A stretch of DNA of 64,000 bases, taken from NCBI RefSeq assembly GCF_029227915.1, contig NC_079887.1:14384001-14448000 (forward strand). The letters are read 5' to 3'. This DNA comes from Hydractinia symbiolongicarpus. Lineage: Eukaryota; Cnidaria; Hydrozoa; Anthoathecata; Hydractiniidae. A program made the translations under genes and the position numbers. The notes beneath the pieces were generated by a model. That model was not told the origin of the DNA, made no database searches, and worked only from the letters and a program-made list of their open reading frames with translations. Within the stretch, counting starts at the first letter, position 1. Every line of letters begins with the position of its first letter. Below, one piece after another: positions 17,460 to 64,000 of this stretch.

Positions 17460-17517
17460 ATGCAGTACTACGAGGTTTTATATCTCATATTTGTCGCCAA
17501 CTTGTTGCTAGTAATAA
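17460..17517 (+). CDS. Gene A exon 1: signal peptide
   Basis: ATG then 'MQYYEVLYLIFVANLLLVI', a short hydrophobic signal peptide. Donor is GTAAGT at 17518. Ends in phase 1. Copy B has the same exon with 'MQYYKVLFLIFVVNLSLL'. No in-frame ATG further upstream is conserved, so this start is preferred. Confidence 0.75.
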
Positions 17518-20500
17518 GTAAGTTCTATTTTATTTAAATAAGGAAATGTTGATGACAAATGTATTTGTGTTTTGTTATTCTATGATATTATTTTAAACTT
17601 ATCATTTCAAATCCATTCCTTCTTCTTTACATTTTCTTATATAATCAACACTAACGTTTAACTGACGTTCAATGTTACTGCAACTTTGTATTTCACAAGC
17701 TCAATGTTAAGCCTAGTTCTCATAAGCACATTTATTATTAAAAATATGTTTACTTCTAGACTCACATATGAGTTTATTTTTATCTAATTGATTATGAAGT
17801 TAAGAATTGTAATTTGTAAATATGGATGTGGAGAATGAGGAAATCTGACGTTTTTCACAAAAGAACGGTTGGAGATAGATAGATGAAAAACTAGGGTATG
17901 ACCAAGGTTTAGTGTTTATTTGTTTTTTAAAAATGTAGTTTTTATCATACGTAAAAAGAGATAAGCTAATTCTGAATTTTTCTGGCTGTCCACATCCTTA
18001 CAAGTCACAAATCTTAATTTCCGTTCGAAAATTAAGTTCAGTGCGAACGCATAATCTTACTGCATAATTACTAGGATATACAGTAGTATAAAGTAATATA
18101 TAGTAAGTATTAGCATATTTGAGAAGAATTTATAAACAATCAGAAGCCTATTAACCACGAAATATTGAGAGTTTAAAGGTCTGTTGTAAATTTTCTCAAA
18201 TTCTGGTCTGCAAAATATACCATATAAATATAAAAATATAAATACAAAATAGTGAAAAAAAAAATCTACATAATTGACAACGCATTCGATTTAAATAGCT
18301 GATCTGTAATTTCTCAAACCCCTGTCTATTAAAAACCTGATTTTTCCTTCCTAATGAGAAGAAAACATTCAGATGATTCACTCCTTAAAATAAATGCTTT
18401 ATCGAAATGATTATGATTTGGAACAGTTCAAAAGAAGTTTTATTACCATAATGTCGCATAATTCATTTTTCTTGCTTTTACAATTAGTATTGTTTAGCTG
18501 TCGTTATGGTAAAACAGAAACAAAACAGAATAAAGATTTAACTTAATAACTACATTAAATAATAATTCCGTTTGACACAAAAGAAAAAATACGCTGTTTA
18601 TAAAAAGAACACTGTAGAATATCAGCGCCGAAACGAATCTACAGTAAAAGAACAACTAAAAATGGGTCGATGTGAACATAACAGTAAATACAAAACTCTA
18701 CATGATAGAATACCAACACCACAGAAACGCTTAGAAAATCTTGCTGAATACAATGTTGATACTTATTTAAATGAAAGTTTCACATCATGAGTTTGAAAAA
18801 TCTGTGACATGCATATATGGTGATAGTATTATAAAAAATGTTAAAGGATGGAAGATCAAAGAAAAACTCTTAGAAAAACAGGATATCATTATTCGATCAT
18901 TTCCTGGCGCCAATACAGACCGTATAAGAAATTATATTATACCACTGGCAGAAACGGATAAACCAAATCGCACAATTATACATGTTGGTACGAATGATCT
19001 TTGCTCTTCTAAATCACCAAATGAAATTTCAGACTCATTATTGACTTGGTTACTGATGTCAGCAAATCATGTCCTTCTGTAATGGTGTCTGGACTTACTA
19101 TGCGAGATGATAATTTTAACAGAAAGGCATTAGAACTAAAAGGATTTTAGAACGATCATGTCAAGAAAGAAATATTTGCTACATAAAACATAGTAATATC
19201 AGCAAACACCATTTGAACGGTAGTAAACTTCATTTGAATAAGAATGGAACAAAGAACATGACTAAAACATTTGCCAGTTATATCAACAAGTGCTGATATG
19301 TACTGCACAGAGACGCACTTCTATCAATTGAATCTCCTCAAATTAGTAATGTCAAATCCATTAAATATTTGAAAACAAAAAACATGTTCAAACTTATGAT
19401 TGGACACTTAAACATCAACTCAATCAGAATAAAATTTGAACAGTTAAACAATCTCTTGTGTGATAAAGTTGATATTTTCTTAGTATCAGAAACAAAACTT
19501 GATGGAAGCTTTCTGAACTCACAATTTCATATGGATGGTTTTTTTTCACCATTCAGAAACGATAGAAACCAATATGGTGGAGGTGTTATGTTTTATGTTA
19601 GAAATAACATTGTTTGCAGAGAAATCGATAAATCGTCCTTACCTTAGATATAGAAGCAATATTTTTTGAAATTAATTTACGTAAACAAAAATGGATTGTT
19701 GCTGGCATTTATAAACCACCATCCTTGAATACTAAATATTTTACAAGATGCATTCGTGAGTTTCTTTCGAAAATTAATTCTGATAATATTATTTTAATGG
19801 GTGATTTCAATGCTGTTGAACATGACGATGATATGTTACTTTTTAATTCAGAGTTGCGTTTAAAAAACCTCATTAAAAAACCAACGTGTCACAAATCATT
19901 ACATAATCCATCATGTGTCGATCACATATGGGTGTCTGATTCTAAACGATTCCACCACACCAGCATTTTGGAAAACGACCTTTCTGATTATCACGATATA
20001 GTTGTAACTTTCTTAAATGTGGAAATACCAAAGAAAGATCCTAAAATTATAAATTATCGTTGTTACAGACTTTTTAATGACGAACATTTTAAACATGACC
20101 TTGAGTCACTTATTGCATCAAACAATGACTTAAATTACAACGACTTTGACGAACAATTTAGTCAGTTGGTCAGCAAACACGCCCCTATAAAATACAAAGT
20201 TGTTAGAAATAATAACTCTCCATTTATAACAAAAGCAGTACGAAAGGAGATAATGATTCGATCGAGATTTAAAAATATCTACAAAAAAAACCCTTCTATT
20301 AAAAACTGGGAAAACTTTAAAAGGCAAAGAAACAAATATGTTTGTAGGGACGCGAAAAGAATTTATTACACATCACTAAATATGAACAACATTTTTGATA
20401 ACAAAAATTTCAGGAAAACTGTAAAGCCGATATTTTCTAACAAATGTGTAAAAGATACAGTCCAAGGAATAGTTGAAAATGATCAAATAATTCGTGAAAA

Positions 20501-23500
20501 ATAACATATAGCAAGTATAATAAATGATCATTTTGTTAATGTCACGAATTCATTGAATATTGATGGAATTTCCGCACGAAAACTATGAGGATATTAAAAA
20601 CGATATTGGAAACGTCATCAAGAATTACGAACAGCATCCAAGTATAATATGGATAAAGAAACATATTACCACTACCAACAAAATGAGCTTCAAATCAATT
20701 GAAATTGACATCATGAAAAAGTATATTGGTAACCTAAAAGAAAACAAATCTGGACCGAAAGGAGCGATTCCACCATGTTTCCTCAAATATTACGTCGATG
20801 TATACGGAGAACATATCAACAAGCTGTTTGAGAAATCTATTGTCGATGAAATTTTCCCTGGAGCAATGAAATTGGCTGATATTTGTCCACTATTTAAAAA
20901 CGGAGATCGTTCATCAAAATTGAATTATCGTCCTGTTAGTAAACTGAGCAGTGCGTCAAAAATTTTTGAACGCATTATGTTTGATCAGATTTATGAATTT
21001 ATTGATAGTAAATTATCACCTCTTTTGTCAGGTTTTCGTAAGGGTTTTAGCAGCCAGCATGTTTTGCTTCACATGATAGAATCGTGGCGAAAAGATCTTG
21101 ATAAAGGAAATGCTGTAGGGGCGCTATTGATGAATTTGAGTAAAGCTTTTGATTGTGTGGATCATAATCTGTTAATAGCGAAACTACATGCATATGGTTT
21201 CTCAAAAAGTGCTTTAGGTCTTTTAAGGAGTTATCTCACCAATCAGTTTCAAAGAGTCGGAATTGATGGCTATTTCAGCTTGTGGAAAGAGATTATTATT
21301 GGTGTTCCACAAGGTTCGATTCTGGGTCCACTTTTATTCAATATTTATATAAATGATTTAATGTTTATTTTAAATGATAGAGCTGATGTTAAAATTTTGT
21401 AATTACGCAGATGACAATACACTTTATACATATGGAAAACAATTTGAGGAGATAAAGTTATGTTTAGAAAGTGCTTTTTCAACTGTTAGCACATGGTTTT
21501 CCAATAATGGGCTTCAGTTAAATTCTGAGAAGTGCAAACTGCTCATTCTGGGAAAATCAAAAACCAAAGATTTTGTTACTTTAAATTTGAAAAATAATAT
21601 ATTACAAGAGTCTCCATACGTAAATTTGTTGGGTATAATTCTTGACAATCAGCTTTCTTTCAGGCAACATGTTCTTCCATTATGTAAGAAGGCTAATGCC
21701 AAGATCAATGCCCTAAAACGTATATCACCATATATGTTCTAATTATAAGCAAAATGTTATTGCTAGTTCATTTATTTCTAGCATATTTAATTACTGCCCT
21801 CTTATATGGGGATTTTCAAGTAGAGATCTACTACATAAAGTTAATAGCATTCATAGTAGAGCAAATAGACTTTTATGCGACAGAATTGAAAATGAATGCA
21901 GAATCAGTATTCATGAAAATTTCTGCCGAAAATTGTTAAAGGAGGTTTTTAAAACAAAAATGAAACAGAATCCCTCCTACATGAATGATGTTTTTGCATT
22001 CAAAAAGACAGCATATAGTTTCCGTGCATCAAGTTCTCTTGAAAGGTGCAGAATTCGCACCACAAAGCATGGTCTATTAACCTTTTCTTATATTGCGTCT
22101 AAATTATGGGAGAAGCTTCCAAACTCTGTCCGAAATTCCCCTTCGTTGTCTTTATTCCATCACGGGGTAAACACCATTCCGTTTATTCAGTGCAGTTGTC
22201 GTCTCTGTGCCACATATATTTGTAACGTAGGATATACGAATTAGCTTCTTATTATTATAATATAAATCTCTTATTTTTTTAGAAACTTTATTTTAGGACA
22301 GTCGATTTTAATTAGCCCAAGGCTAACAAATTTTAACTTTTTTTAATGTGTCTAGCATGTTATATTGTATATTGTATATCGACTTTAAAGAAAGAATAAA
22401 TAAATAAATAAATAAATGTTACCGAAATTATGTTCAAACACACCCAGCGAGAAATTTCAACTCCGTCTTCAAGATAGAAGTGAAATAAAGCCGGAACGAA
22501 GTTATATTTCGGATCTTTCATGTAAACAGACATTGGCTTTTCTTAGGAGTCCAAAGTTCACGCCGGCGTGAAAAAATACTATAAAGGACCCCTACACGGT
22601 ACTATATGTCACGTGATGCCCCATACTTAAAGCGCTCAAAAAAACTGCTCCTGAATAGGTTAAGTTGCCTAGTCACTACAGAAAAGGTATCTTGTATACC
22701 ATATTCATATTCATCAATGCAATGAAATGTTTAATAACACAATTGACTATTTTTATATATATAATGGGGTATCCTCTTCTTATCCTTGTCCTTTAGGGCA
22801 TGATTGATTTGTCAAGGAGAATGAAACGAAAGTTGAAATAAAGTCAATTTTCATGAATACCAAAGGTTTTCCTTAAACGACTCTGGTTTACGTTGCTAGA
22901 GTTTTTATCATATCGCATTGTGGATAATTTTAGGTTAAAAATTGCGTTTTACAGTGCTTTACTCTCGTTAATTATTTTTTCAACTCTTTTTAGAATGTGA
23001 CAAAAACCTGACTGCAAGAAAGTAAGTAGTTTCTTTTAAAATAAAATTACCATTTATCTGTTCAATCATTGTCTTTGAATAATATAAAATATTATCATGC
23101 ACCTCAGGCGGCAGCGTCTGCTGAATATATTTGGATATTCGTGCAGTCGTTAGACGAGAGTTAAATATCTCAGCAGAAATCCGATATCAATTATCTACTC
23201 CAGATATTCGATAGTCCCTCCGACACTTATATTTCGTGTATGTATGTAGTTCTCTTATAAAATCACATGAAAGTCGATCAGATGAAGAGTCAAAACTAAT
23301 AAAAGATAAAAAAGTTATCAAACAGGAAGATGTATTATATCGCACTCCTATTCTTATTGTTCTCGATAGTGGTGCACAAGAGATAAGCAATCAGATGGAG
23401 AGCTGAAAATAACTGAAGGGCGAATGTCTTAGAACAACAAGAAACAAGAACGGCATAGATACCCTGATTGTTTTTATTTATTATTTTTTTTGGCGGTGTT

Positions 23501-26500
23501 TTATTTTAATGAAAATCCTAATCTTTTCTCATTATTTTCTTGTTTTTTCAACATAAGATATCAGAGATGATATGTTGGTTTATTTGAAGCAAGGCGTACG
23601 TTCAATCGAATGAAATTTGCTTTCGGTTTAAAAGTGTCGGAACATGTGCGCATACTGTTTGCATAGCACTCGAGTTGAATGTGGTCAAACCTTTTTTGAA
23701 GCAATGCAAAAAAAGAGACCTAATATCAGAAACTTAGTAGACTTTTTAACGAGAGAAACGAGGGCAAAGAGAAAACGAATACCAATTACAAATTTAATCG
23801 ATCCATCAGCTAATGCACGAACGGAAACACCATCTACACTATCGCTATCGCGGCCTACTATTGTTTCAACTACTTAGCAGACACATACGTCATATATAAT
23901 GCTACCAATTGTATCATCTGCGCATTTAATATAAACATCTCCAATACTACCATCAACGCAATCTATTCCACCTTTAACACAGTGAATAAACCAGCAACAA
24001 CTGTACCCACAGATAATGGTTATGTCTTGTTCCTTCTCAACTTCGCCCACAAAAATGTATCAACTTGCTACTGTTGTGGAGGAAAATTTTAGTCAAATAT
24101 TCCATCGGACAATATGCAAAATTTAACCGTAGTTTCGAAAACCAAAAAAGTTATTTCGACCCTACAGCGAAAAAACAAACATTCTCATTCATGTTTAAGC
24201 TGCTTTGCTGCTGGTTTTATTGTAGTTCCTGGCGATATAAAACCATTGTTGAACCAGCAGCATATTCGCATATCACGTGCAACAAACATTTCCGTATAAC
24301 GAAGAAATATAGATATCAAATGTGTTTTTATCATCGTTCATGTTAAAAAAAAAAAAAATAATAAAAAAAATCAGGGCATCGGGTCTGAAGTATCGGTATC
24401 AGGGTATTGGGCATCGGGTATTGGGTCTCGGGTCTCGGGACTCGGGTCTCGGGTATCTCATAGGATCCCTTTTCTGATATGCCAACCAGAGCAAAAATTT
24501 ATGATTGTGTGAACTGTTATTGTCATCTCATTTGTTTTCAATGGTGCATGATAAAACAGAAATTCAGCGCAGTAAAATCAGATATCGTGATTATTCAGTC
24601 TCGTTTTGTTGATATTCGACTCCGCTGCGAGTCGTCGTACATCACAAGCTCGGCTGAATAATCACGGATATCCGATTTTACCTTGCTGAATATCTCTTTA
24701 ATATGACATGATAATAGATGTATTATTCGATAAAGTAAGTATTTGTAACTTATTTGCATCGTCCAAGTGCGAGTATTACACAGGCGAAGTGCAGTTTGTT
24801 ATCGTACTTAAGCTTGATATACAACTGAATGAAATAACTTTTGAGCGAACATTTATAAAGTATTTTGGCAGGACACTGATTATATGTTACCTCCGCTTTG
24901 TTTCTTCATGCGATATAACAATTGTGTCATGTTCAATTAGTCTAAAAAATACTGCCCTTAATTGCATAAATAAATTTTATGCTGACTTTTGCAAATACAG
25001 TTTGCCCTTTATGGAAAACATTTTTGCACAAACTAGATCTAGTGTCCAATTAAATTAATGAGAGCAAGTTTATATTTATTAGAAAATTCACTAAGAAAAC
25101 TTAACTTGCAAAATTGGAATTAGTTATTACACCTATACTCATATGCGAGACGGTTTACCGTATTAGGTGCCGAGTGTGGTGTTAACAACGGATTGTTTTC
25201 CCATGTTTTTATTTAAAACGAAGCTGTGATAAAGGTTTTTGAAAAGGGTACTACGCCTATACGGATGTGTACCGCACTTCTTGAATTTTAGCGGAAAATT
25301 GTAATAAAAAATAAAACAATGTTGCTTAATTATTTTTGCTATTAAGGGGTTACAAAAACGGGTGGTAAACTGTTTTTATTTCAGCCGCAGTTGCAGGAAA
25401 GTTATTTCTTGGAAAATATATTACACCCAAACCACTATAATGCTGTGTGCGCTTCAACAATCCAAGATATAGGGCATTTCTGTACTGTACTATACTAAAT
25501 ACCTGTCTAATTTTCTATCCATTTTTGCTCAAGTTTTAGTTTCGTTAATTAAGCCAATAAGAAATAAAATAACAAAATTTAATATAATAGCCTTACCCTC
25601 ATTTTTGTTTTTATGCAACAAGATTGTAAGCTATTATTAAAGGTGTAACAACTACTTGTGTTATTATTTTCTGATTTTTTTTTTAGTTGCATTCCCTACA
25701 AAGATATATTACCGCATGGGCAATGTTTTGATGCTTTGTCTAAGTATAATATCTACAATTATAACATGGAGGAGCTGAAAAGAACTGATAAAATTTTAAG
25801 CATAGTCTTCTCGCTCGTTTCTGGGTGGAAGAATGCCGATAACCATACAAAGATGATAGCGATTAATAGACAATTGCGAGAACACCTAGGTAAGACTGCT
25901 AAATCTCAATAACAATAAAGGTTGACTGTCTGTGCAGTAAAACCCATAACAAGAAGAAAAGAGTTAGTTAGAAATTAGATAACCATACAAAGATGATAGC
26001 GATTAATAAAGAATTGCGAGAACAACTGGGTAAGTCTAAACTTCTATAACAATAGAGGTTGACTGTTTCTGTAGTGAAATCCATAATAATAAGAAAACTG
26101 TACTAAGCGGTCCAATCGGATGTGAGACACGATTTACACGCACTAAACGCGTAACTGGATGTGCGACGCGGCATCTCCTGGCTTTAAGTCTATTGCATTC
26201 AGTTGATCTAATTTAGATGTATGCAATAATTTTCCCAAATTAAAAACAAACTTGGAAAATATCACTGAAGTATACAAAGAGAAGATCTCATTATTCTTTA
26301 GTTGCTTCTCTTATGATATCAAGTGGATTCTTTGTCATCTAACACATTCAGTGTGCTTACAATCAAATGTTGATGCTTCAGTTATACTATCTCCACCTTG
26401 TAAATCAACCTGCGTCAATGACAAGTGTTTTGCTTTGTTCAAATATGTTTACAATCTGATGAAAGATTTACGTAGTATCTGCCATGTATCAATGCCTCAC

Positions 26501-29500
26501 TTGAATGACAGCAGATTTAATCTAAATTGCCAAGCTTTACCTGAAGCGAATCTTACTTATTTTGAACGTTGTCAAAACAAAGGTATAATTTTAATTAAGT
26601 TTAAGTAACTGGTTTATTTCCTTTCCCCTTTCGCTAAGGCAACTATACAAATCCAGTTTTTCTAATTGTTAGTTTAGTCTATTTGCTACAGTTATAGGTT
26701 TTATGATGGAAGAATTCGGTTTTTAATACCACAAGGAATTTGTTTTGCTCCTTTTTATACAGCTATAGGCAGTCTTAAACACTTGTAATGCTGAATCTTT
26801 ACGTGGCGAAAAATGTCAAAGGGGAGCACTTTTTTTGCTGCTATATTTTTTGCCTCGTGAAGATGGCTACTAGTAGTTGCTCGCAATAAATTCACATTAT
26901 TAGTAAGAATTATATCAATGCCCAATATTGTACTGCCTTTTTTAGAATCGGCACGACTGAATTTAAGTTGTATGCATTTCGACATTTATATTCATGATGT
27001 TATTAAAAAGTTACTATACCTTTTGACATCAGTCAAGTTAAGTTTAATATAATAAGGCACTCGTTGTATCGGGCAAACCATTTTAGTCAACACTGCAGCT
27101 TCGCTTTGCCGAGACTTCGCGTTTATGAATAGACATTTTCGTTTGCGTCCAAATTCTCGTATGAAAAAAAAGCACATTATAATATCTTTGAAGAAGACTT
27201 AATTGATTAGTTAACTTATTTCACTAGGCTACTGTATAAAAGGTTCCTCAGATAAAGTAAAATGCAATCATATTGAAAATGAGCCAATCTAGTTTGGCGA
27301 GATCGCTTTCATATGCCGTGATCTGGGTTAGGCAGACAAAAAATTTCTCGTGTAATATAGGTTGAATTTTATAATTTTGTGCATTATTATTTTAATTGCA
27401 GCCGTCTTTTTTGGAGACTGTTAAGGATATGGGAAACACCCATACAGCCTATAATAAAAATATATGAAAGTACATGTATTTTAAAAGCTAAATTAATTTC
27501 GTTTTTTGTATTAAAGTAATAATTATTTGGGAAAACGTAAAAAATATCGAACGACCTTTTTGAAATTCTGACTTTCAAGCCTGATACTTTTTGCATAAAA
27601 TAAGTCGAGCTTATTGGAGTGTTATATATTAAAATGCTTTTAACACACTAAAACCTTTATTTTGATACATTATTGTATATATGTTATGACAGCTTATATT
27701 GTTTCGTTAATAATGGTATAAAAATGAGAACGTTTGAAGTTTAATTTGTTTTACAAAACTACTAGGCTTTCGTCTTTGCCGTTTGCTTTTCTGTGATCCC
27801 AAAATATGATCTAAAAACCATCTTTACATTTCTTCTTTACATTCTTTATTTTTGGAAAAGTTTAGTATAAATTTTTTATACGATTTTTAACCTAATATCG
27901 TCGGAAAACTAACTTACCGTAACTTGCGTTCTGCTTGCTGTAGGTAAAACATACCTCTCCACTTTATGGTTTTGTGAAAGAGGTTTAAAATGTAAGAAAT
28001 ACTGTCCTAAAAATTTAGTCACAAAGGTAACCACCATTACCTAACTGTTTTTTACATCTTCTTATGCTGCACGTGGTGGCTCATATAAATGATCATTAAA
28101 ATTGATTTCTAAAAACATTATTTGGGAGAAAATATTTGATCGTTATCACAAAGCACAAACGTCAAATACATTTTCAAAAACTATTTTTGCACCGTCCAGA
28201 TCTTTTTCTATCTGATCACTAAAAATCTTTTTTAACAAAAACTGATTTTCTTTTACACTTTTGCGATAAATCCCTTTGATACCCAAATATAACTAAAAAC
28301 AGCAGAAATGTACCTTACCAAAGTTTATATAATTTATAATTAATTTATGCGGGAAATCCGCTGCGATGATTGGATAAGAACTTTCACTACGGGCTCTATA
28401 CAGCACGGTAGAACTTTTAACCTTCGGTCGGCGTATAGTCCTCGCAAGCTTGGTCGGCACTTTCGCCCTGACATTATATTTCTCAGCATAGATAGACAGA
28501 ACAGCTTATATTGTTTTAATACGCTTTATGACCTCTTATCTGGCTTTAAAATTAAGTTTTCTGGCAAAACATATTTCGTTCATTAATGTCCTTGCTTTTG
28601 CCCATTGCAGAAGTTGAGTTTGTCGATATTTTCATTTGATTTAAATGTGTCAGGTGCTTTACGCACGCGTTAGATTATGTCTCCTAAAGTTGAGAAAATA
28701 TAGAGAAAGTAAGTCTACCTTTTATGTGTCCATTGTTTAGTATCAACAGATGGGTTAACTTACCCACTTTTCCTGGTTTACTTAGGGCTGCAAAAAGAGC
28801 AATACTATGACGAGTTACAATTTGTTAAAAACATGTACTTTATGTCTCCTTTGCATAAAGCGTGAACGTATTTACACATGGATATATCGGATATTTTTTA
28901 AAAATAGTTTAATTAAAATTCACTTAATGACAGTGTGTAATACTCAGAAAGTCTCGTGTATGCTTTTTAGCCTGCCCAACAAGACTAGCTCGCTCTATGT
29001 GATTGTATAGAAAACGTTAGTGAGCTCATATGATCAGTCCTATATCATCCTTTTCAAATACAGGTTCTACAATGAATATAAATTATGTGCGAGATTTCTT
29101 ACAACGACACATTTCTCAAGATGTTTGTTTTACTAAATTACAGAAAACCGGAACATCCTGCACACGCGATACTGTCACAATTATACCCGAAGAGACGACA
29201 GCTTTGTTGGAGAAATCGGCGAGGGATGCGTATTTTGGAGTGAAGCAAACCCGTACGTATCAGCGAGCGTTTATCCAACTTTGTATAAGCAATATTGTAG
29301 AAATCCACAGGGATTTTCCACCACACCATGGTATTACACTGATATGCGAAGCCGTGCCTGGAAAACGTGTGGATACTTAGAGAAATGTTTGACACCTGAA
29401 GAAAAAAGTAAGTACATATTTTTCCCTCGATCATACTTGATTTTAAAGGTACACTAATTGAAGAGGGAGCACAAAGCTGCGGATAGATTTTTGCTCCTAC

Positions 29501-32500
29501 AAGCCACAAAAGAAAATTTCAACAAATCGAAAAACGAATTTCATAGAACTTGCACTTTTATATTAAGTTGTGTCAAAATTTTTAAAAGTGTAAAATCATA
29601 TCACATGGCTTAATATAAACAGTATGGACAGCATCAGAATGTTAATTGGGCACAAAGCGTCCTTAACAAAACATTTCATAATAACAGGCTAGCCCTATGA
29701 TTTGTAGGATAATCCACTTATTACAGAGAAAGTATGTTTCACGAAATCAGGTTTAAAGTTCGTAAATATATTTTTACCTCATCAAAAGGCAAGAATAAGA
29801 ATGCCACTTGTCTAAAAGTCTTTTCCACAATACTCCATAACAGTAATACTTTCTTTTCTTTATATTTATGTACTGGACACCTGCCTGCCAAATCTTTGAA
29901 TCCTATGTATTAAAACTTATTTCTTAAAATGAATCACATAATCACAGAAATAAGTTTTTAATGCAGTACTTGTTCAGACCTTAACCAGGTTTTAACCAGC
30001 AAGTACATACACAAATCCCAAACCCTCTTAAAGTTTGAGTTGCCAATCAGTATTGCTTTTACCTATAATAATCTAAAATAAGTTCCAAGACACGTAAGGT
30101 TCACTAAGACTGCAGACATGTCTTCTCGAGACAGCGTGAAGTAGTAAGCATATAATGTGATTTCATTTGCCTATAAGCTATAACCACAGCTGTAATATTG
30201 CTTGTCTAATAATATTTTTAGATAAAGAACTTTGGACAAAGAAGTAAGCATATTATTTGTCTATATTATAATACCCGTATACGTCTGTTTCTCACGCAAA
30301 GTGGTACTGCAAATAGCAAGACGCGCGCAATGCGATATAAAAAGGACGGGCGAACTCTTTGCTTCCACGAGTCACTGCCTAGTTAACACTATTTACTTTA
30401 AAGTCTCAGTTATTGGATGTCGCTGAAGTGATGTAAAAAATATTTAAATGATGCTGACATGAATTTGTATTTCGGTCAAATAGATCAGAAAAAGGACAGA
30501 AAGAGAACTATCTTATCCATATTGTAACACTAGAGTGAGCGAGCCTCGTGTTCTTTAAATAATTGAAGTAGAATTTTAAATAAATAGCCATTACCTGTTA
30601 CTTTATTGAGGTACCAGTTACACAAATAGTCTAATACTTTGATTTGCTTTATGAGGTACAGCATTTATTCGCTGCATTTTAGGTGAAGATACATTCTTAC
30701 CAATTTAGCGTAGCTGTCACTGTCATTAGCACAAAAAGCGTTTCCGCAATAATTGCAGAAATATTTCAGAGGAATTTGATTCCGTCGCAAAAATATCGGG
30801 GATTACGAAGCGTGATAAGGCTGAAAGAATCACAATTTCCGATAAGTTTGTGATTGCAAAGTGTGACAAAATTGTGTTATAAAGTGCGATGTATCAGAGT
30901 TTACGGGGTGGTGAAAGGGATAACAGGATCCTTGGACCCCAGTTGTCTTTTGAGCATGGTTAGAAGGGTTTTCAAACAAAATGCTTATGTGGCAATACTA
31001 AGATATATGGAGATAAAGTTAGGTAAGTGTTTTATTTACGTTTGTTGTTATTCTTATCAAACACATAAATATATCATAAATAATTATTCAAATGTAAAAG
31101 AACAAAACATGATAACACAATCTTTTCCCTCTGGTGCCAATTGTAACAAGCAGTAGATATTTAGTTTTCGTGAAAGGATTGCAAAGCCTTAATTATTTCT
31201 TTTTTTATGAAATCGTTTGCATATAAAAAACACCAAACAAGGCTATATTTTTCGAAAACATGTACAATTAAAAGTTTATCACATGAATCAAACACAAGTC
31301 ATTGTATTTGATAGCTATATTCGGTAAACTTTTGTCCAACTTCAGATATCGTTTATTAAGTTCTTTGGTTAACAGCATATAGTCTAGGAACCCACAATGA
31401 ATCCTATGTTGTCATACAATTAAATTTTCACATTTGTATATAATCGAAATAAACACAAATCATAACTATTTATCTGAAGTTTGAGGTAAACTAAGAATTT
31501 TTCAGCGGTCGATAGCACCTTGCTCCTAACGGCTATATGCTAACAAAAGAATAATTGGAGCGTGAATATCTGTTTGTGTCATAAAAAGTTTGTTATATTC
31601 GAAAAAAGACTTGAAACAACCAACAAGTTCTTCTTTCTAAAGTAAATCATAACTTCACTCTACCAATCAGGAATATCATATAAGGTCTTTTTGCCTGATA
31701 TTTCAGCTAAAAAGAGAAAAAATATATGCTTTTTGCACTGTAAAATTAAAAGTTAAGTAAAGATTGAACACGTTCCTCGATGTAACTTGTGTAGACTTTA
31801 GCCAATTAAAGCGTCCTAAGGCAAAATTAGACAAACTTTGACCCCATGATGATAAATTTAAAAACTTAGATTTTCTTTAGAGCCATATACCAATTTTGGG
31901 TTGGATAAAATTCTATCAAATTTGACAAGAAGTCTTCAAAATGTTATTGAAGAACTTAGCCAACACCCAATTCTATTCAAAAGGATTTTCTGTATGGTAC
32001 GATTTAGAGTTTGCTTAACTTCGTCGAAAGATAAATCATTCATTATATCCTGGCCATGCCGCAGCTTATGCGAAAAATATTTACCAGTTTCGCAAGAAAT
32101 ATATAACATTCTTCATCAACTGAAAAAACTACCTTCAGAAGAATTCATAAACGTGCCCGATTTGGGAAATAAATCTATCTGTACATTTCTTCCGGAACAG
32201 GATATAACACACTTAGAACGATGTCAATTAATTGGTGAGTAACTAATTTAGTTAAAAATTTCAGAATATTGTTAGTGGTAAAAATATTTGTAAGCATTAC
32301 CTATCTCGGTTTATTTGTATTGCAATGGCCTTATCATAAAATAAAACTGGAACTTCAAACACAAATTATCTATTTTAACCAATGACAGCTACCAATTTCA
32401 GCTGGTAATTAGATATTTTAAAATCTTCTTATTAATGAAGCGATAAGTACAACCCGTTTTTGCGGGTTATAAGGGTTCAAATTAATATAGCGTGTCTTCA

Positions 32501-45219: not shown

Positions 45220-45274
45220 ATGCAGTACTACAAGGTTTTATTTCTTATATTTGTGGTTAACTTGTCGTTATTAA
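45220..45274 (+). CDS. Gene B exon 1: signal peptide
   Basis: 'MQYYKVLFLIFVVNLSLL', donor GTAAGT, phase 1 out. One codon shorter than in gene A. Confidence 0.75.
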
Positions 45275-48200: not shown

Positions 48201-51200
48201 AGCTCTTTTATTGTTTTTCAACTCATTATAGAATGTGACGAAAACTTGACTGCAAGAAAGTAAGTAATTTTCTCTTTTTAAAAAATTACCATTTATTTGT
48301 TAAATCATTGTCATTGAATAATATAACATAATATGACATGATAATACTTATATTATTCGATAAAGTAAGTATTTGTAACTTATTTGCACCGTCCACATGC
48401 ACGTTTGACACATGCAAAGTGCATTTAGTTATAGCGCTGAAATTAGATATACAAGTGAATTTAATAACTTCTGAGCGAAAATTTGTAAAGTATTGTGACA
48501 TGGCACAGATTATATGTTACCTTTGCTTTGTTTCTTCGTGCAATATAACAATTGTGTCAGGTTTAATTAACTTTAAAAAATACTGCCCTTAATTGTATAA
48601 ATAAATTTTATGCTGACTTTTGGAAATACAGTTTGCCCTATATGAAACACATTTTTGCGCAAACTAGATCTATTGTTCAACTAAATTAATGAGAGCAAAT
48701 TCATATTTATTTCAAAACTTAATTTGCAAAATTGGAATTAGGTATTACACCTGTACGCATATGCGAGAGGGTTTACCATATAAGTGCTGAGCCTGGTGCT
48801 TTCCTATGTTCTTATTTAAACCGAACCTGGGATAAATTTTTTTGAAAATAGTATAACGCCTATCCGGATGTGTACCGTACGTTTCGAACTTACGCGGAAA
48901 CTTTTTGTGTAAAATATTTTTTGGAGAATATATTACACCTGAAACACTATAATGCTGTGTGCGCTTCAACCATTTAAGACATTGAGCATGCCTGTACCGT
49001 ACTATAGTACATACATATCAAACTTTTTATCCATTTTTGCTCCAGTTTTGGTTTCGTTAATTAAGCTAATAAGATGTAAAATAAATATAAGAAATTATTC
49101 TCTTTAATAACAAAATTTAATAAAATAGCCGGACCCTTATTTTTATTTTCCCGCAACAAAATTGTAAGCTTTCATTAAAGGAGTAACGTGCTATTATTTT
49201 CCTGATTTTTTTTCTTTTTAGTTGCATTCCCTACAAAGATGTGTTGCTGCATGGGCAATGTTTTGATGCATTGTCTAAGTATAATATCTACAATTATAAC
49301 ATGGAGGAGCTGAAAAGCACTGATAGAATTTTGAGTGTAGTCTTCTCGCTCGTTTCTGGGTGGAAGAATGCCGATAACCATACAAAGATGATAGCGATTA
49401 ATAGACAATTGCAAGAACACCTAGGTAAGACTGCTAAATCTCAATAATAATAGAGGTTGACTGTCTGTGCAGTAAAACCCATAACAAGAAGAAAAGAGTT
49501 AGTTTGAAATTTCTTAACACAAAAACTCGTTCTTCGCGGTACCCTCTTTTATGCAACTTTCAATCCGCTTTTAATGGTGTTTTGGCCTAAATATTGCTTA
49601 CAACTTATTGAATTGAAGGGTCGAAACCGTTCTTGGCTGTTGGTTATAATAACTGGGGTGGGCGTCATTAGAGACGACTTTAAACGATAGTGACGGTGAG
49701 AGCATTTTTAAAACAAAGTTGATTTATTTTTTTCTGAACTTTCAGTTACGATTTTGTACTCTAAATTTTAAAGTAAATATTTAAAAACGCTTTTAGCCAT
49801 TGGTCATAGATTTCGTTTCGTAATCACAGGTTCTGTGATTCGATCTACCACGCGGGCATGTTTAGCAACCCATACCATGTAAGAGAGATTGTATTGGTGT
49901 ATACTTAATGTATATATTCAGAACACAGGACCTACATTGATAACAGTGTTTCCAACACTGAAGTGGCTATATTTTGTATAAATGTTTACAATAAACAAAC
50001 AATTTAACGATTTTGGCTGCAAAGCTACATCCGTCAAAAACTTGGTAACTATTTATGTTTTTTTTTGCTTGTGTGTTCTGCTGAACAGTAAAAGTATTCA
50101 ACATAAAACAGATTTTGTGCTGAACAGTGTCAATTACACAATTAGGCAAAAACAGCTGTTTCCACAAATATTATTCCTAGGTACGTAGGCTTAGATAGTC
50201 ACTTCAGCACAGCGACTCTGGCAATACGTCCATGAACTAGCTATACTTTCCTTTTTTTGTTTTAAATGCGCTCTAGCTAGCCGACACATTTTACTGCTGT
50301 TTCATTGCTAAAGTTTGTATTATGAATGCATAACCATATTTAAAGTAAACACACACATAAAGTCCTATCTACCTAGCTTGACTAACCTAGATGATATTCA
50401 AATTATATCATCTGCAATGGCGGATGTGCCACAAAGGATGCCTGTATTAAGCAGCCCCATCGGATGTGGTGTTAACGAGGTGTGCAACGCTGCGTCTCCT
50501 AGCTTTGTATCTACTGCATTTATGTTGTTCTAATTTAGATATGTGCAGTCATTTGCCCAAATTTAAAACAAATTTGGAAAATATCACTGAAGTATACAAG
50601 GAGAAGATTTCGTTATTCTTTAGTTGCTTCTCTTATGATATCAAGTGGATTCTTTGTCATCTAACACATTCAGTGTGCTTACAATCAAATGTTGATGCTT
50701 CAGTAATACTATCTCCACCTTGTAAATCAACCTGCGTCAATGACAAGTGTTTGCCTTTGTTTAAATATGTTTACAATCTGATCAAAGATTTACGTAGTAT
50801 CTGCCATGTATCGATGCCTCACTTGAATGACAGCAGATTTAATCTAAATTGTCAAGCTTTACCTGAAGCGAATGTTACTTATTTTGAACGTTGTCAAAAC
50901 AAAGGTATAATTTTAATTAAGTTTAAGTAACTGGTTTATTTCCTTTCCCCTTTCGCTAAGGCAACTATACAAATCCAGTTTTTCTAATTGTTAGTTTAGT
51001 CTATTTGCTACAGTTATAGGTTTTATGATGGAAGAATTCAGTTTTTAATACCATGGGGAGTTTTTTTGTTCTTTTTTATACAGCTATAGGCAGTCTTAAC
51101 ACCTGTAATGATGAATCTTTACGAGGCGGAAAATTGGGGGGGGGGACTTTTTTCGCTGCTACATTTTTCGCCTCGTGGAGATGGCTACCAGTCGTTGCTC

Positions 51201-54200: not shown

Positions 54201-57200
54201 GCCAGATCGCTTTCATATGCTGTGATCTGGGTTAGGCAGACAAAAAATTTCTCGTGTAATGTATGTTGAATTTTATAATTTTGTGCATGATTATCTTAAT
54301 TTCGGCTGTTTTTTTTGGAGACTGACAGCTTATATTGTTTCGTTAATAATGGTATAAAAATGAGAAAGTTTGAAGTTTAATCTGTTTTACAAAACTACTA
54401 GGCTTTCGTCTTTGCCGTTTGCTTTTCTGTGATCCCAAAATATGATCTAAAACCATCTTTACATTTTTTCTTCACATTCTTTATTTTTGGAAAAGTTTAG
54501 TATAAATTTTTTATACGATTTTTAACCTAATATCGTCGGAAAACTATCTTACCGTAACTTGCGTTCTGCTTGCTGTAGGTAAAACATACCTCTCCACTTT
54601 ATGGTTTTGTGAAAGAGGTTTAAAATGTAAGAAGTACTGTCCTAAAAATTTAGTCACAAAGGTAACGACCATTACCTAACTGTTTTTTACATCTTCTTAT
54701 GCTGCACGTGGTGGCTCATATAAATGATTATTAAAAATTGATTTCTAAAAACATTATTTGGGAGAAAATATTTGATCGTTATCACAAAGCAAAAACGTCA
54801 AATACATTTTCAAAAACTATTTTTGCACCTTCCAGATCTTTTTCGATCTGATCACTAAAAATTTTTTTTAACAAAAACTGATTTTTTTTACACTTATGCC
54901 ATAAATCCCTTTGATACCCAAATATAACTAAAAACGGCAGAAATGTACCTACCAAAGTTTATATCCATAACTTATTTACTGATAGCTATTTTTAATTAAT
55001 TTATGCGGGAAATCCACTGCGATGATTGGATAGGAACCTTCACTACGGGCTCTATACAGCACGGTAGAACTTTTAACCTTCGGTCGGTGTATAGTCCTCG
55101 CAAGCTTGGTCTGCACTTTCGACCTGACATTATATTTCTCAGCATAGATAGACAGAACAGCTTATATTGTTTTAATACGCTTTATGACCTCTTATCTGGC
55201 TTTAAAATTAAGTTTTCTGGCAAAACATATTTCGTTCATTAATGTCCTTGCTTTTGCCCATTGCAGAAGTTGAGTTTGTCGATATTTTCATTTGATTTAA
55301 ATGTGTCAGGTGCTTTACGCACGCGTTAGATTATGTCTCCTAAAGTTGAGAAAATATAGAGAAAGTAAGTCTACCTTTTATGTGTCCATTGTTTAGTATC
55401 AACAGATGGGTTAACTTACCCACTTTTCCTGGTTTACTTAGGGCTGCAAAAAGAGCAATACTATGACGAGTTACAATTTGTTAAAAACATGTACTTTATG
55501 TCTCCTTTGCATAAAGCGTGAACGTATTTACACATGGATATATCGGATATTTTTTAAAAATAGTTTAATTAAAATTCACTTAATGACAGTGTGTAATACT
55601 CAGAAAGTCTCGTGTATGCTTTTTAGCCTGCCCAACAAGACTAGCTCGCTCTATGTGATTGTATAGAAAACGTTAGTGAGCTCATATGATCAGTCCTATA
55701 TCATCCTTTTCAAATACAGGTTCTACAATGAATATAAATTATGTGCGAGATTTCTTACAACGACACATTTCTCAAGATGTTTGTTTTACTAAATTACAGA
55801 AAACCGGAACATCCTGCACACGCGATACTGTTACAATTATACCCGAAGAGACGACAGCTTTGTTGGAGAAATCGGCGAGGGATGCGTATTTTGGAGTGAA
55901 GCAAACCCGTACGTATCAGCGAGCGTTTATCCAACTTTGTATAAGCAATATTGTAGAAATCCACAGGGATTTGCCACCACACCATGGTGTTACACTGATA
56001 TGCGAAGCCGTGCCTGGAAAACGTGTGGATACTTAGAGAAATGTTTGACACCTGAAGAAAAAAGTAAGTACATATTTTTCCTTCGATCATACTTGATTTT
56101 AAATGTACACTAATTGAAGAGGGAGCACAAAGCTGCGAATAGATTTTTGCTCCTACAAGCCACAAAAGAAAATTTCAACAAATCGAAAAACGAATTTCAT
56201 AGAACTTGCAATTTTATATTAAGTTGTGTCAAAATTTTTAAAAGTGTAAAATCATATCACATGGCTTAATATAAACAGTATGGATAGCATCAGAATGTTA
56301 ATTGGGCACAAAGCGTCCTTAACAAAACATTTCATAATAACAGGCTAGCCCTATGATTTGTAGGATAATCCACTTATTACAGAGAAAGTATGTTTCACGA
56401 AATCAGGTTTAAAGTTCGTAAATATATTTTTAACTCATCGAAAGGCAAGAATAAGAATGCCACTTGTCTAAAAGTCTTTTCCACAATACTCCATAACAGT
56501 AATACTTTCTTTTCTTTATATTTATGTACTGGACACCTGCCTGCCAAATCTTTGCATCCTATGTATTAAAACTTATTTCTTAAAATGAATCACATAATCA
56601 CAGAAATAAGTTTTTAATGCAGTACTTGTTCAGACCTTAACCAGGTTTTAACCAGCAAGTACATACTCAAATCCCAAACCCTCTTAAAGTTTGAGTTGCC
56701 AATCAGTATTGCTTTTACCTATAATAATCTAAAATAAGTTACAAGACACGTAAGGTTCACTAAGACTGCAGACATTTCTTCTCGAGACAGCGTGAAGTAG
56801 TAAGCATATAATGTGATTTCATTTGCCTATAAGCTATAACCACAGCTGTAATATTGCTTGTCTAATAATATTTTTAGATAAAGAACTTTGGACAAAGACG
56901 TAAGCATATTATTTGTCCATATTATAATACCCGTATACGTCTGTTTCTCACGCAAAGTGGTACTGGAAATAGCAAGACGCACGCAATGCGATGTAAAAAG
57001 GACGGGCGAACTCTTTGCTTCCACGAGTCACTGCCTAGTTAACACTATTTACTTTAAAGTCTCAGTTATTGGATGTCGCTGAAGTGATGTAAAAAATATT
57101 TAAATGATGCTGACATGAATTTGTATTTCGGACAAATAGATCAGAAAAAGGACAGAAAGAGAACTATATTATCGATATTGTAACACTAGAGTGAGCGAGC

Positions 57201-60200
57201 CTCGTGTTCTTTAAATAATTGTAGTAGAATTTTAAATAAATAGCCATTAACTGTTACTTTATTGAGGTACCAGTTACACAAATAGTCTACTACTTTGATT
57301 TGCTTTATGAGGTACAGCATTTATTCGCTGCATTTTAGGTAAAGATACATTCTTACCAATTTAGCGTAGCTGTCACTGTCATTAGGACAAAAAGCGTTTC
57401 CGCAATAATTGCAGAAATATTTCAGAGGAATTTGATTCCGTCGCAAAAATATCGGGGATTACGAAGCGTGATAAGGCTGAATTACAAAGTGCTTCATGAA
57501 AGAATCACAATTTCCGATTTTTCCACAATTTCAGTGTGACAAAATTGTGTTGTAAAGTGCGATGGGATTACAATACATTTGATGGTTCTAATGTTATAAA
57601 ATAAAAAATGTCAAGTAGGTTATTTTGCCTCTAAAGTATAATGTTCTTTTTCTAGGCAATGTGTGGAATACAAGAATATTGTACCAGATCAGTTAGGGTT
57701 TTGCACAAAATATCTAAATAACAAAAAAGTGTATCAGAGTTTACGGGGTGGTGAAAGGGATAACAGGATCCTTGGACCCAAGTTGTCTCTTTTGAGCATG
57801 GTTAGAAGGATTTTCAAACAAAATGCTTATGTGGCAATACTAAGATATATAGAGATAATGTTAGGTAAGTGCTTTATTTACGTTTGTTGTTATTTTTATC
57901 AAACACATAAATATATCATAAATAATTATTCAAATGTAAAAGAATAAAACATGATAACACAATCTTTTCCCTCTGGTGCCAATTGTAACTAGCAGTAGAT
58001 ATTTAGTTTTCGTGAAAAGATTGCAAAGCCTTAATTATTTCTTTTTTTATGAAATCGTTTGCATATAAAAAACACCATACAAGACTATATTTTTCGAAAA
58101 CATGTACAATTAAAAGTTTATCACATGAATCGAAAACAAGTCATTGTATTTGATAGCTACATTCGGTAAACTTTTGTCCAATTTCAGATATCGTTTATTA
58201 AGTTCTTTGGTTAACAGCATATAGTCTAGGAACCTACAATGAATTCTATGTGGTCATACAATTAAATTTTCACATTTGTATATAATCGAAATAAACACAA
58301 ATCATAACTATTTATCTGAAGTTTGAGGTAAACTAAGAATTTTTCAGCGGTCGATAGCACCTTGCTCCTAACGGCTACATGCTAACAAAAGAATAATTGG
58401 ACCGTGAATATCTGTTTGTGTCATAAAAGTATGTTATATTCGAAAAAAGACTTGAAACAACCAACAAGTTCTTCTTTCTAAAGTAAATCATAACTTCACT
58501 CTACCAATCAGGAATATCATATAAGGTCTTTTTGCCTGATATTTCAGCTAAAAAGAGAAAAAATATATGCTTTTTGCACCGTAAAATTAAAAGATAAGTA
58601 AAGATTGAACTCGTTCCTCGATGTAACTTGTGTAGACTTTAGCCAATTAAAGCGTCCTAAGGCAAAATTAGACAAACTTTGACCCCATGATGATATATTT
58701 AAAAACATAGTTTTCTTTAGAGCCATACACCAATTTTGGGTTGGATAAAATTCTATTAAATTTAACAAGAAGTCTTCAAAATGTTATTGAAGAACTTGGC
58801 CAACACCCAATTCTATTCAAAAGGATTTTCTGTATGGTACGATTTAGAGTTTGCTTAACTTCGTCGAAAGATAAATCATTCATTATATCCTGGCCATGCC
58901 GCAGCTTATGCGAAAAATATTTACCAGTTTCGCAAGAAATATATAACATTCTTCATCAACTGAATAAAATACCTTCAGAAGAATTCATAAACGTGCCCGA
59001 TTTGGGAAATAAATCTGTCTGTACATTTCTTCCGGAACAGGATATAACACACTTAGAACGATGTCAATTAATTGGTGAGTAACTAATTTGGATAAAAATT
59101 TTAGAATATTGTTAGTGGTGAAAATATTTGTAAGCATTACCTATCTCGGTTTATTTGTATTGCAATGGCCTCATCATAAAATAAAACTGGAACTTCAAAC
59201 ACAGATTATCTATTTTAACCAATGATAGCTACCAATTTCAGCTGGTAATTAGGTATTTTAAAATCTTCTTATTAATGAAGCGACAAGTACAACCCGTTTT
59301 TGCGGGTTATAAGTGTTCAAATTAATATAGCGTGTCTTCAAGGAAAAGGTACAAACTTTTCAAATTAAGAATTTAAGAGAAAAGCATTGCAAAAAAAAGA
59401 AAGAAAAATAACTTATTATAATCAATTTTCGTAAAATATGTTTTATGTTGGCCTATGGTTGTTTTCTGGTTGCTTAATTTTACTGATAAGACTGGTTTAA
59501 TGACCCTTTGTGTCAGGTTGTAGAGGTTACACCCTCTAAAGACAAAGCACAGTTCAAGATCTCCCTTATTGCAAAGATAGTCTGCATATTCAAGAACGAA
59601 CGAACGAACGAACGAAATGAAAGCTGTTTTACATCACATTAATTATACAGGATTTAGAGCATATACGCCAGTGCGTAAATTGCTTAGAGATGGAAGAACA
59701 TCGTAGGTGGAGCTTAAAAAGAAAGAAAACAGTTTTGGTGGCATAGCAAGTAGACATTCCCAGGAGAGTTCGGTCCATCTGGTTCAACATCCCCACACCT
59801 GCTGTTTTAAAACTTTCCTCATATCTTTCTTCCATCAATTTATTTTCACAACTTCTAAGAACCTTTATAAAATAACTTGTCAACACTCGAGAGACCTGCA
59901 GGTAACTTTTCATTATGTTCGTTAATAGCCTTTGTATCTGAGGTAGACCCACCAATAATAAGACGTAATAATTGCACAGGCATGGTGTGGATAGAAGAAA
60001 AGAAGGAAGAGAAGTATGTAAAATCTTAAGGCTTTGTGACAGCAAAAAGAATTTGAACTGAGGGACTTACCCTTTCTGATCACAAAGCCACTTGATTTGT
60101 GCACACGGAAATCTATGGCAGCTGATTTTAGTGCTACAGAACACCTAGAAAACAGCGTTTAGGTAACAGACATTGATAAAGACATCATGGTGATATCGTC

Positions 60201-63200: not shown

Positions 63201-64000
63201 TCTATCGTTCTACATTTTTGCTAAATTAGATTTCAAAGCGCTGAAGTGGGTAAAAAATATGAATTCTTATAAACTTTTTAAATATTCAAGGATAAATTTT
63301 GTAAAAATATTATAAGTCTATAAAAAAAGAGCAGCTAGCTAGCAAACTGGGCCATGTGCAATTCCTTACAAAGGTTTTATCGCTATTTGAACCAATAGTG
63401 ACCCACAATCTGACAGCACATACGCTTATAGCGGGCGTAAAGATCATGGAGGAAAGGAAGCGTAGTTTCAGTTTTTTAGATCCTAAAAGCGTAGTTGAAT
63501 CAAAGTGGCGAAGGTGCCAGAAGCAGTTACATATTACAATCCATGAACAAGTAGAAGGATCGAATTCGAATCCTCATAGTGACGAAAAATATAAGTAACT
63601 TTCCGAAACAATTTTACAGTGGCCCCTATAAATCTTTTTAAGTGTTTATGTAGCATAACAGCAGAAGCGAAAACGATCCTGAGAAAAGCTGGATTTAAGC
63701 AAACAGCTTAAATAAACATGTTTTTTTCTTCACTATTACTTTAGAAGATTCAAATCAGAACTTCACAAAAGTGTGTTACGAAGGAAATGGAAGTGGTTAC
63801 ATTGGGATCATTAATGTTACATCTTCTGGAAAAACCTGTCAACCCTGGTCTATAAATCCTTATTTAGACCCTGGCTCTTACCCAACATTAAAGGAAAACT
63901 TTTGCAGAAATCCACAGGGTCATTTGCATAAACCTTGGTGTTACGTAGAAAAGTCGATGCAACGTTGGGAATACTGTGACGTCAAAGAATGCAGCAAAAA
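45220..64000 (+). CDS. Gene B: CRD-kringle-CRD-kringle transmembrane receptor, intact as far as seen (3' end outside window)
   Basis: Exons: 45220-45274, 48232-48259, 49222-49424, 50539-50904, 55800-56063, 56878-56899, 57656-57864, 58721-59074, 63745-beyond 64000. Every border is GT-AG and every phase matches. All 12 kringle cysteines visible in the window are present, and CRD2a, broken in gene A, is whole here. By comparison with gene A the remaining exons (membrane helix, tail) should lie within about 2 kb past the window end, giving a protein of about 665 residues. The pair of Fz-CRD and kringle is the hallmark of ROR-family receptors, here doubled. Binding of Wnt-like lipidated ligands and action as co-receptor, decoy or clearance receptor are inferences. 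Confidence 0.8.
45275..48231 (+). other. Intron 1 of gene B with a 2.0-kb anonymous insertion (about 45598-47640)
   Basis: The flanks match gene A intron 1 near 17805. The extra 2.0 kb has no open frame above 63 codons, no recognised terminal repeats and no known motif. The LINE of gene A is absent. Confidence 0.5.
48232..48259 (+). CDS. Gene B exon 2: 28-nt microexon of CRD1
   Basis: Acceptor TCATTATAG, donor GTAAGT, phase 1 to 2; encodes 'CDENLTAR' with split ends. Confidence 0.7.
49222..49424 (+). CDS. Gene B exon 3: CRD1, first half
   Basis: Acceptor TTCTTTTTAG, donor GTAAGA, phase 2 to 1. 'CIPYKDVLLHGQCFDAL' opens the CRD. The 140-bp tandem duplication seen in gene A is absent. Confidence 0.78.
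50539..50904 (+). CDS. Gene B exon 4: CRD1, second half
   Basis: Acceptor TAATTTAG, donor GTATAA, phase 1-1. Starts 'MCSHLPKFKTNLENI' after a split Asp. Same cysteine set as gene A ('SCFSYD', 'WILCHLTHSVCL', 'PPCKSTCVNDKC', 'ICHVSMP', 'NCQALP', 'ERCQ'). Confidence 0.8.
51428..51510 (+). repeat. Imperfect 15-bp tandem repeat inside the Helitron
   Basis: About five units of the form CGACACTCACAACAC with substitutions. Confidence 0.7.
53000..53525. repeat. Three imperfect pyrimidine-rich tandem units inside the Helitron
   Basis: Units of about 180-200 bp share TTATTTTCTACTTCTAA, then CACTTCTAGCTCCAC-like and TTCTACTTCTTCACTTGG segments, then CTTTTTAAATATA. The strand is strongly C/T-biased. 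Confidence 0.7.
55800..56063 (+). CDS. Gene B exon 5: kringle 1, intact
   Basis: Same borders as gene A plus 26656. It differs from gene A at three bases, all changing an amino acid: 'CYNYT' (A: CHNYT), 'GFATTP' (A: GFSTTP) and 'PWCYT' (A: PWYYT). All six kringle cysteines are present. Confidence 0.9.
56878..56899 (+). CDS. Gene B exon 6: 22-nt KELW microexon
   Basis: 'NKELWTK', donor GTAAGC; it joins CRD2a with codon ACG. Phase 1 to 2. Confidence 0.55.
56916..57038 (+). mobile_element. 123-bp mini-Helitron, copy B counterpart
   Basis: Same place and ends as 30260-30382 with few substitutions; it predates the tandem duplication. Confidence 0.55.
57656..57864 (+). CDS. Gene B exon 7: CRD2, first half, intact
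   Basis: Acceptor CTTTTTCTAG, donor GTAAGT, phase 2 to 1 (1 + 207 + 1 nt). 'QCVEYKNIVPDQLGFCTKY' matches the CRD1 opening 'CIPYKDILPHGQCFDAL', and a helix-rich segment follows. The whole exon is open. Only this copy retains it. Confidence 0.78.
58721..59074 (+). CDS. Gene B exon 8: CRD2, second half
   Basis: Acceptor TTTTCTTTAG, donor GTGAGT, phase 1-1. Starts 'EPYTNFGLDKILLNLT'. Same cysteines as gene A exon 8, with a handful of substitutions. Confidence 0.75.
60237..60545 (-). mobile_element. R2/NeSL-like RT remnant, copy B
   Basis: 'TIWQDIANAFPSFLHRLI' and 'MRGIFVGCTLSIILF', as in copy A (33977-34285). The next segment on the same strand gives 'KSSGFVIRKGKS' at about 60070-60104. Confidence 0.6.
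62090..62680 (-). mobile_element. Penelope-like RT remnant, copy B
   Basis: Here one frame (62328-62648) runs from 'SDENIFIYPYDKGAVI' to 'PPRMYGTVKAHKLSNESFG', joining segments that are out of frame in copy A. Motif A 'YDVVNLYPSVP' follows at about 62165-62200. Confidence 0.72.
63745..64000 (+). CDS. Gene B exon 9: kringle 2, cut by window end
   Basis: Acceptor TATTACTTTAG. 'KVCYEGNGSGYIG', 'TCQPWS', 'FCRNPQGHLHKPWCY', 'WEYCDVKEC'; all six cysteines are present. About 11 nt of the exon lie past the window. Confidence 0.93.

Follow-up and report, generated by a model that had tools for sequence, protein, structure and literature searches.

The 64,000-nucleotide stretch of DNA from the colonial hydroid Hydractinia symbiolongicarpus analysed here (scaffold C13:14384001-14448000; hereafter the window) contains a predicted gene for a single-pass receptor in which two modules, each a cysteine-rich domain (CRD) of divergent frizzled (Fz) type followed by a kringle, precede one membrane helix and a short tail without a kinase. 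The presence of this double CRD-kringle, kinase-less gene is confirmed at the level of the spliced gene model. The gene is the second unit of a C13 array of four tandem units, two of which occupy the window from approximately 14.4 kb onward while two more lie downstream. A preliminary description of the window had read 17460-64000 as a single receptor stretch. The architecture that it proposed stands, but the stretch is not one gene: it comprises two tandem units, the first of them damaged, and the points 17460 and 45220 that it singled out mark the exons encoding the signal peptides of these two units.

Unit 2 (45220-65330, with the last 1.33 kb past the window end) was spliced from the DNA before any annotation was consulted. 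The predicted gene has 11 exons, ten of ten introns with GT-AG borders, phases that are all consistent and an open reading frame (ORF) of 661 residues. In the first module, on the plus strand, exon 1 (45220..45274) encodes the signal peptide MQYYKVLFLIFVVNLSLL, exon 2 (48232..48259) is a 28-nucleotide exon of phase 1 to 2 (both from the gene model), exons 3 (49222..49424) and 4 (50539..50904) encode the N-terminal part of CRD1 with cysteines 1 and 2 and the CRD1 core, respectively (gene model and cysteine alignment), and exon 5 (55800..56063) encodes kringle 1. The second module follows on the same strand, with exon 6 (56878..56899; 22 nucleotides, phase 1 to 2) as the counterpart of exon 2, exon 7 (57656..57864; N-terminal part of CRD2) as that of exon 3, exon 8 (58721..59074; CRD2 core) as that of exon 4, and exon 9 (63745..64011, the window ending at 64000) encoding kringle 2. 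Exons 10 (membrane helix; 64246-64365) and 11 (tail and stop codon; 65233-65330) lie outside the window in locus L009. The product thus reads signal peptide, CRD1, kringle 1, CRD2, kringle 2, membrane helix and a tail of approximately 43 residues. The helix (residues 600-618; 19-residue hydropathy of 2.8) is the sole segment above 1.6, and the protein carries 12 N-glycosylation sequons. Both the splice-consistent exons for two CRDs and two kringles ahead of one helix and the tail of about 40 residues noticed beforehand are borne out by this model.

A RefSeq paralogue found after the model had been built (P0002; LOC130622936 X1, 652 residues) has the same layout, with 77% identity over 100% of the unit 2 query and 94% (17/18 residues) in the signal peptide. 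Either kringle 1 or the CRD2 core is missing from the paralogue's isoforms X2 and X3; the exons concerned are of phase 1-1 in unit 2, and in-frame skipping is possible. The paralogue also bears on whether prediction has simply joined two neighbouring CRD-kringle genes. The exon joins are predicted from DNA, the window's own database model (P0001) is shorter and begins only in exon 4, and mispredicted domain architectures are described as a known problem (PMC3927609). Nevertheless, all phases fit in unit 2, the same joins are present in the paralogue, itself a predicted model, and the module order is repeated at C13 11.11-11.13, 11.90-11.93 and 11.99-12.01 Mb, which makes a gene-model artefact extremely improbable.

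The domain assignments were assessed against the Pfam cut-offs of 34.3 bits for PF00051 (kringle) and 32.1 bits for PF01392 (Fz). Kringle 2 scores above the cut-off in both units (73 bits in unit 1 and 74.3 bits in unit 2), and kringle 1 below it (28.5 bits in unit 1 and, just short, 32.7 bits in unit 2); each unit 2 kringle has six cysteines, and kringle 1 of unit 1 has five. A hidden Markov model search for both domains in the joined protein had been suggested in the preliminary description. Run on the 661 residues at an expectation value (E) of ≤1, it returned kringles only, in agreement with the kringle half of the assignment but not with the Fz half, and CRD1 of units 1 and 2 gave no match to PF01392. 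The two CRDs are nevertheless related to each other (29-33% identity for CRD1 versus CRD2 across units, E 4e-13 to 5e-9; 4e-13 for unit 1 CRD2 against unit 2 CRD1 in tblastn). Both P0002 modules align along the full CRD-kringle region of the relative P0010 (E 2e-42 and 4e-41), and P0010 matches ROR2 (9fse) over residues 129-311, one CRD-kringle stretch, with an E of 2e-14. Drosophila Nrk (7me4) is likewise matched by P0010 in sequence, again mainly in the kringle. P0010 itself scores 26.7 bits against PF01392 (E 8.6e-6) and the C11 relative 29.0 bits, both below the cut-off, which is exceeded only in the six-frame scan (32.6 bits at C11:20447841 and 32.5 bits at C2:24572992).

The cysteine pattern provides a further comparison. 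Published Fz-CRDs are described as having C4-x6-C5 and C6-x3-C7 spacings and the disulfide partners C1-C5, C2-C4, C3-C8, C6-C10 and C7-C9 (PMC6938638). An alignment of 14 units (four first modules, three second modules, six single modules and the Fz-kringle-kinase protein P0018) shows ten Fz cysteines plus an extra pair in CRD1 and eight in CRD2, in which C3 and C8 are jointly absent. All 12 CRD cysteine columns are filled in four of four first modules and in four of the six single-module units, C3, C8 and an extra pair are missing from all three second modules, and the single-module proteins P0011 and P0014 lack exactly C7 and C9. With the exception of P0018, the losses therefore fall on disulfide partners, the pairing being taken from published Fz-CRDs. 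The chance of complete-pair losses only is 0.09 for two losses and 0.03 for four, with the extra pair defined post hoc. The CRD1 spacing departs from that published, with C7-C8 of 4 rather than 6-7 and C3-C4 of 9 rather than 8.

Several results speak against an Fz assignment. CRD2 scores only 16.3 (unit 1) and 16.1 bits (unit 2) against PF01392, below the cut-off; the ROR2 match comes largely from the kringle (the 9fse CRD-kringle scores 56.1 bits and the ROR2 kringle alone 53.1); a family profile aligned with only the kringle and the CRD end of the kinase-bearing P0018; and this outgroup leaves cysteine columns 3, 9 and 10 unfilled. For the doubled paralogue P0002, AlphaFold with six closely related rows gave a mean predicted local distance difference test score (pLDDT) of 31.5, and the model was discarded. 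A model of P0010 reached a pLDDT of 57, with Foldseek matches to 9fse (E 9.1e-4) and Drosophila Nrk (7me4; E 1.5e-3); because these have poor root-mean-square deviations and arise mostly via the kringle, as do 48 of the 50 rows of a second structural look, they leave the Fz fold unproven. On the basis of the relatives, the cysteine pattern and the ROR-like CRD-kringle order, the window CRDs are nonetheless assigned as divergent Fz domains.

The lack of a kinase noted in the preliminary description agrees with the stop codon inside exon 11 and with the searches around it. The kinase domain of P0018 gave a best tblastn E of 3.2 over 154 kb of C13, and nothing below 0.30 over the same 154 kb plus four other loci; L021 (C2:24.57), mostly masked, is informative for its CRD alone, and L019 (C9) was used in this check only. 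Genome-wide profile searches covered the 480.9-Mb, 76-contig assembly. PF07714 yielded at least 165 matches (138 of 646 candidates scored), and among the matches listed the nearest is more than 3 Mb away for the C13 family loci and more than 330 kb away for the C9, C3 and C11 loci. Two kringles on C2 have a PF07714 match 0.8 and 0.9 kb downstream. These two C2 loci, L022 and L023 (C2:31.22 and C2:30.05 Mb), also have Fz matches and read from their ORFs as Fz-kringle-kinase genes. At L022 (C2:31219501-31225500) the ORFs at 270-5039 read Fz, immunoglobulin-like, Fz, kringle, kringle, membrane helix and kinase; of these, the second Fz (22.7 bits, below the cut-off), the kinase and two stretches of kringle have Pfam support, and the first Fz and the immunoglobulin-like domain were assigned by eye. 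This kinase, presumably PTK7-like, has HKDLAARN and no clear DFG.

The two halves of the ectodomain are closely comparable in gene structure. Exons 2-5 and 6-9 have similar sizes (28/22, 203/209, 366/354 and 264/267 nucleotides) and identical phases (1-2, 2-1, 1-1 and 1-1). In a tree of 16 module rows, in which the root is arbitrary and the kinase rows and C11 have long branches, first modules form one group (100/100) and second modules another (98/98). These comparisons give good support to an origin of the doubling in a one-module ancestor, similar to the genes on C3 and C9, whose exons 2-5 were copied in frame as one block to produce exons 6-9. The window gene, P0002 and P0006 are represented in both module groups, so the duplication would predate the split of the C13 paralogues; P0008 falls among the first modules.

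The window gene belongs, on its sequence relationships, to a local receptor family with one-, two- and mixed-module forms. The profile search found 50 kringle matches in the genome, and a search with P0006 found 63 matches. The double-module type is present at seven C13 loci, namely the three regions given above and the four array units, of which unit 4 is a remnant. On C9 and C3 there are eight CRD-kringle pairs at distances of 0.2-4.9 kb. Locus L018, on C3, reads signal peptide, small exon, two-exon CRD, kringle, membrane helix and tail, with phases that nearly match one half of the window gene; the C11 locus L020 reads CRD, CRD, kringle and membrane helix (the last by eye), and P0012 reads kringle, kringle and membrane helix. 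The membrane-helix exon of L018 is repeated (4110-4241 and approximately 4702-4833, plus strand), and the RefSeq isoform P0009 holds this stretch twice, which would give two membrane helices.

Searched against 5.8 billion proteins at E ≤ 1e-3, the unit 2 protein has seven matches. Five of them are RefSeq entries of the same species, one is P0001, and the last, P0007, is a kringle protein with a different composition. At E ≤ 1, the C3 protein as query returned ten, of which seven are from H. symbiolongicarpus and the others are P0011, P0017 (kringles and a protease domain) and P0018. P0011 (382 residues on a 1318-nucleotide contig) and P0008 (313 residues on a 1059-nucleotide contig) are unbroken across positions that are introns in the window gene, from which we infer that they look like complementary DNA of a related species. 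Two family searches at E ≤ 1, by a method that needs shared short exact words, found no member named for another species. RefSeq labels the relatives uncharacterized, 'MuSK-like', 'Ror2-like' or 'plasminogen-like'; LOC130622936, LOC130622972 and LOC130623534, from the same species and scaffold, are of the same family and named uncharacterized, the first having the full layout. We found no publication on the family or on six RefSeq gene names in the open-licence PubMed Central literature. In that literature the architecture is undescribed, as had been claimed, although relatives are already in RefSeq.

The remaining array units are damaged. Unit 1 (17460-39119, plus strand) is 92-97% identical to unit 2 from 26.2 kb on and less so before; because insertions and damage differ between the two, a false duplication in the assembly appears unlikely. 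Its exons are 1 (17460..17517; signal peptide), 2 (22994..23021), 3 (25687..25889; N part of CRD1), 4 (26217..26582; CRD1 core), 5 (29144..29407; kringle 1, with Tyr at the fourth kringle cysteine), 6 (30222..30243), 7 (30890..31022; a remnant), 8 (31881..32234; CRD2 core), 9 (37517..37783; kringle 2), 10 (38018..38137; membrane helix) and 11 (39022..39119; tail, with stop codon TAA). In exon 7 approximately 166 bp of the unit 2 counterpart are gone, which removes the acceptor and CRD2 cysteines 1-2 and disturbs the frame. An earlier reading of this exon from a nearer acceptor was dropped once unit 2 revealed the missing segment. A twelfth exon after the tail was also rejected, because three units retain the exon 11 stop and unit 3 has neither the additional donor nor the additional acceptor. 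Unit 3 has a TAG in exon 3 (CRD1) and, judged by eye, no clear acceptor for exon 7, and unit 4 is a remnant in which CRD2 and kringle 2 pieces contain stops. Within unit 1, ORFs that read as reverse-transcriptase-like (18771-22244, plus strand) sit between exons 1 and 2, and a fragment reading GLTNKDNTCYVNAILQAF (32807-33211, minus strand), which we take to resemble the start of a ubiquitin-specific protease, lies in the intron between exons 8 and 9 beside a four-base tandem repeat.

The damage in units 1, 3 and 4 could indicate decaying ROR/MuSK genes, already without their kinase and heading for loss. This is very unlikely given that the reading frames of unit 2 (661 codons) and P0002 (652 codons) are uninterrupted, that the pairwise ratio of nonsynonymous to synonymous substitution rates (dN/dS) over eight exons is 0.44 for units 2 and 3, and that P0008 and P0011 are transcript-like. 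The corresponding ratio for units 2 and 1 is 0.61, with a contribution from an exon 7 row that the deletion compromises. The overall dN/dS of units 2/3 and 2/1 gave no sign of positive selection on the ectodomain.

It is about an even call that these tandem genes encode a catalytically silent, single-pass, ligand-binding receptor acting as a co-receptor, decoy or clearance receptor. The ROR-like CRD-kringle modules would bind a secreted or cell-surface ligand, for which a Wnt-type ligand is the first candidate by domain kinship. Without a kinase, the receptor may present, sequester or internalize the ligand or join another receptor, and the doubled module may raise avidity or provide two ligand sites. 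In seven aligned tails chosen by the analyst (P0002, unit 2, P0009, P0011, P0012, P0013 and P0014), the sole invariant residues are a Tyr and a Leu-Leu pair, which might serve sorting or adaptor binding. Kremen1 is described as being internalized via an atypical dileucine motif (PMC3522622). Other features of the tail and of ROR2 count against a ligand-binding receptor of this kind. Canonical [DE]xxxL[LI] occurs in two of nine tails and Tyr-x-x-bulky hydrophobic in three of nine, and the P0010 isoform, which ends otherwise, was excluded from the alignment. The tail is poorly constrained between units 2 and 3, since its exon has a dN of 0.36 and a dS of 0.14 over 29 codons. The lipid pocket present in other CRDs is described as absent from that of ROR2 (PMC11219042).

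The same data can be read as those of an adhesion or extracellular-matrix protein in which kringles and CRDs are structural and have no receptor function. No catalytic domain was found in the Pfam scan or the kinase tblastn, kringles are common binding modules and the sequons are numerous, at 12 in 661 residues. However, loci with diverged ectodomains share the Tyr and Leu-Leu of the tail, and the CRD-kringle-membrane helix order is that of ROR receptors; a purely structural role is quite unlikely.

Sequence divergence is uneven along the protein. Between the window gene and P0002, identity is 87-91% in CRD1 and 93% in kringle 2, and it falls to 53-64% in CRD2 and 56% in the tail. The low value for CRD2 is a pattern that an immune or allorecognition receptor family would produce, with lineage-restricted tandem duplicates, diversifying modules and exon-skipping isoforms. 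The seven double-module C13 loci and eight pairs on C3 and C9, the damage in three of four array units, the isoforms without kringle 1 or the CRD2 core and the excess of dN over dS in the tail exon when units 2 and 3 are compared are in keeping with this. In contrast, overall dN/dS is below 1 in both comparisons and the pattern of an immunoreceptor tyrosine-based inhibitory motif occurs in none of nine tails; we regard such a family as unlikely. Returning to the silent ligand-binding receptor, a broader proposal is tentative and on balance doubtful: a lineage-restricted hydrozoan system in which a ROR-type CRD-kringle ectodomain became detached from the kinase, increased in copy number and was recombined as exon modules of phase 1-1 (CRD-K, CRD-CRD-K, K-K and CRD-K-CRD-K, where K is a kringle), with a shared short tail motif and a diversifying CRD2, possibly forming a kinase-free recognition repertoire for Wnt-like or self/non-self cues. 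In ROR, MuSK and Kremen, kringle and Fz domains are connected with Wnt control, and a natural kinase-less CRD-kringle family beside kinase versions would make the ectodomain's own role directly testable in Hydractinia, a tractable model for stem cells and allorecognition. The window gene would also be an example of a receptor ectodomain doubled through exon-block duplication.

Elsewhere in the window, which has a GC content of 0.31-0.37 (4-kb steps), reverse-transcriptase-like ORFs were likewise read at 2-2371 (plus strand), and a DDE transposase in pieces, which we assume to be pogo/Tigger-like, lies at 5648-8245 (minus strand; PF03184, 24 bits for 5648-6367). Seven-helix-type ORFs adjoin the receptor family on both C13 (window 13214-14245, plus strand) and C11 (L020 6845-7858, plus strand); they share 25% identity (E 3e-17), and PF00001 matches the C11 ORF and not the window one. 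An Rfam scan gave no matches at the gathering score, and a phage collection searched with CRD1 gave none, as expected for an animal gene.

Among known systems, ROR1/ROR2, Drosophila Nrk and MuSK resemble the window gene in having an Fz-type CRD, then a kringle, then one membrane helix. The window gene differs in its two CRD-kringle modules before the helix, its short tail and the absence of a kinase, and the Hydractinia loci that read as Fz-kringle-kinase genes are separate (C2:30.05 and C2:31.22 Mb). Kremen1/2 are likewise kringle-bearing single-pass receptors. Their ectodomain also has WSC and CUB domains, whereas the window gene has CRDs and gave no WSC or CUB match in the Pfam scan of the 661 residues at E ≤ 1. 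Secreted frizzled-related proteins and other secreted Fz-CRD decoys carry an Fz-CRD without a signalling domain; unlike these, the predicted product of the window gene is membrane-anchored, has kringles and is doubled.

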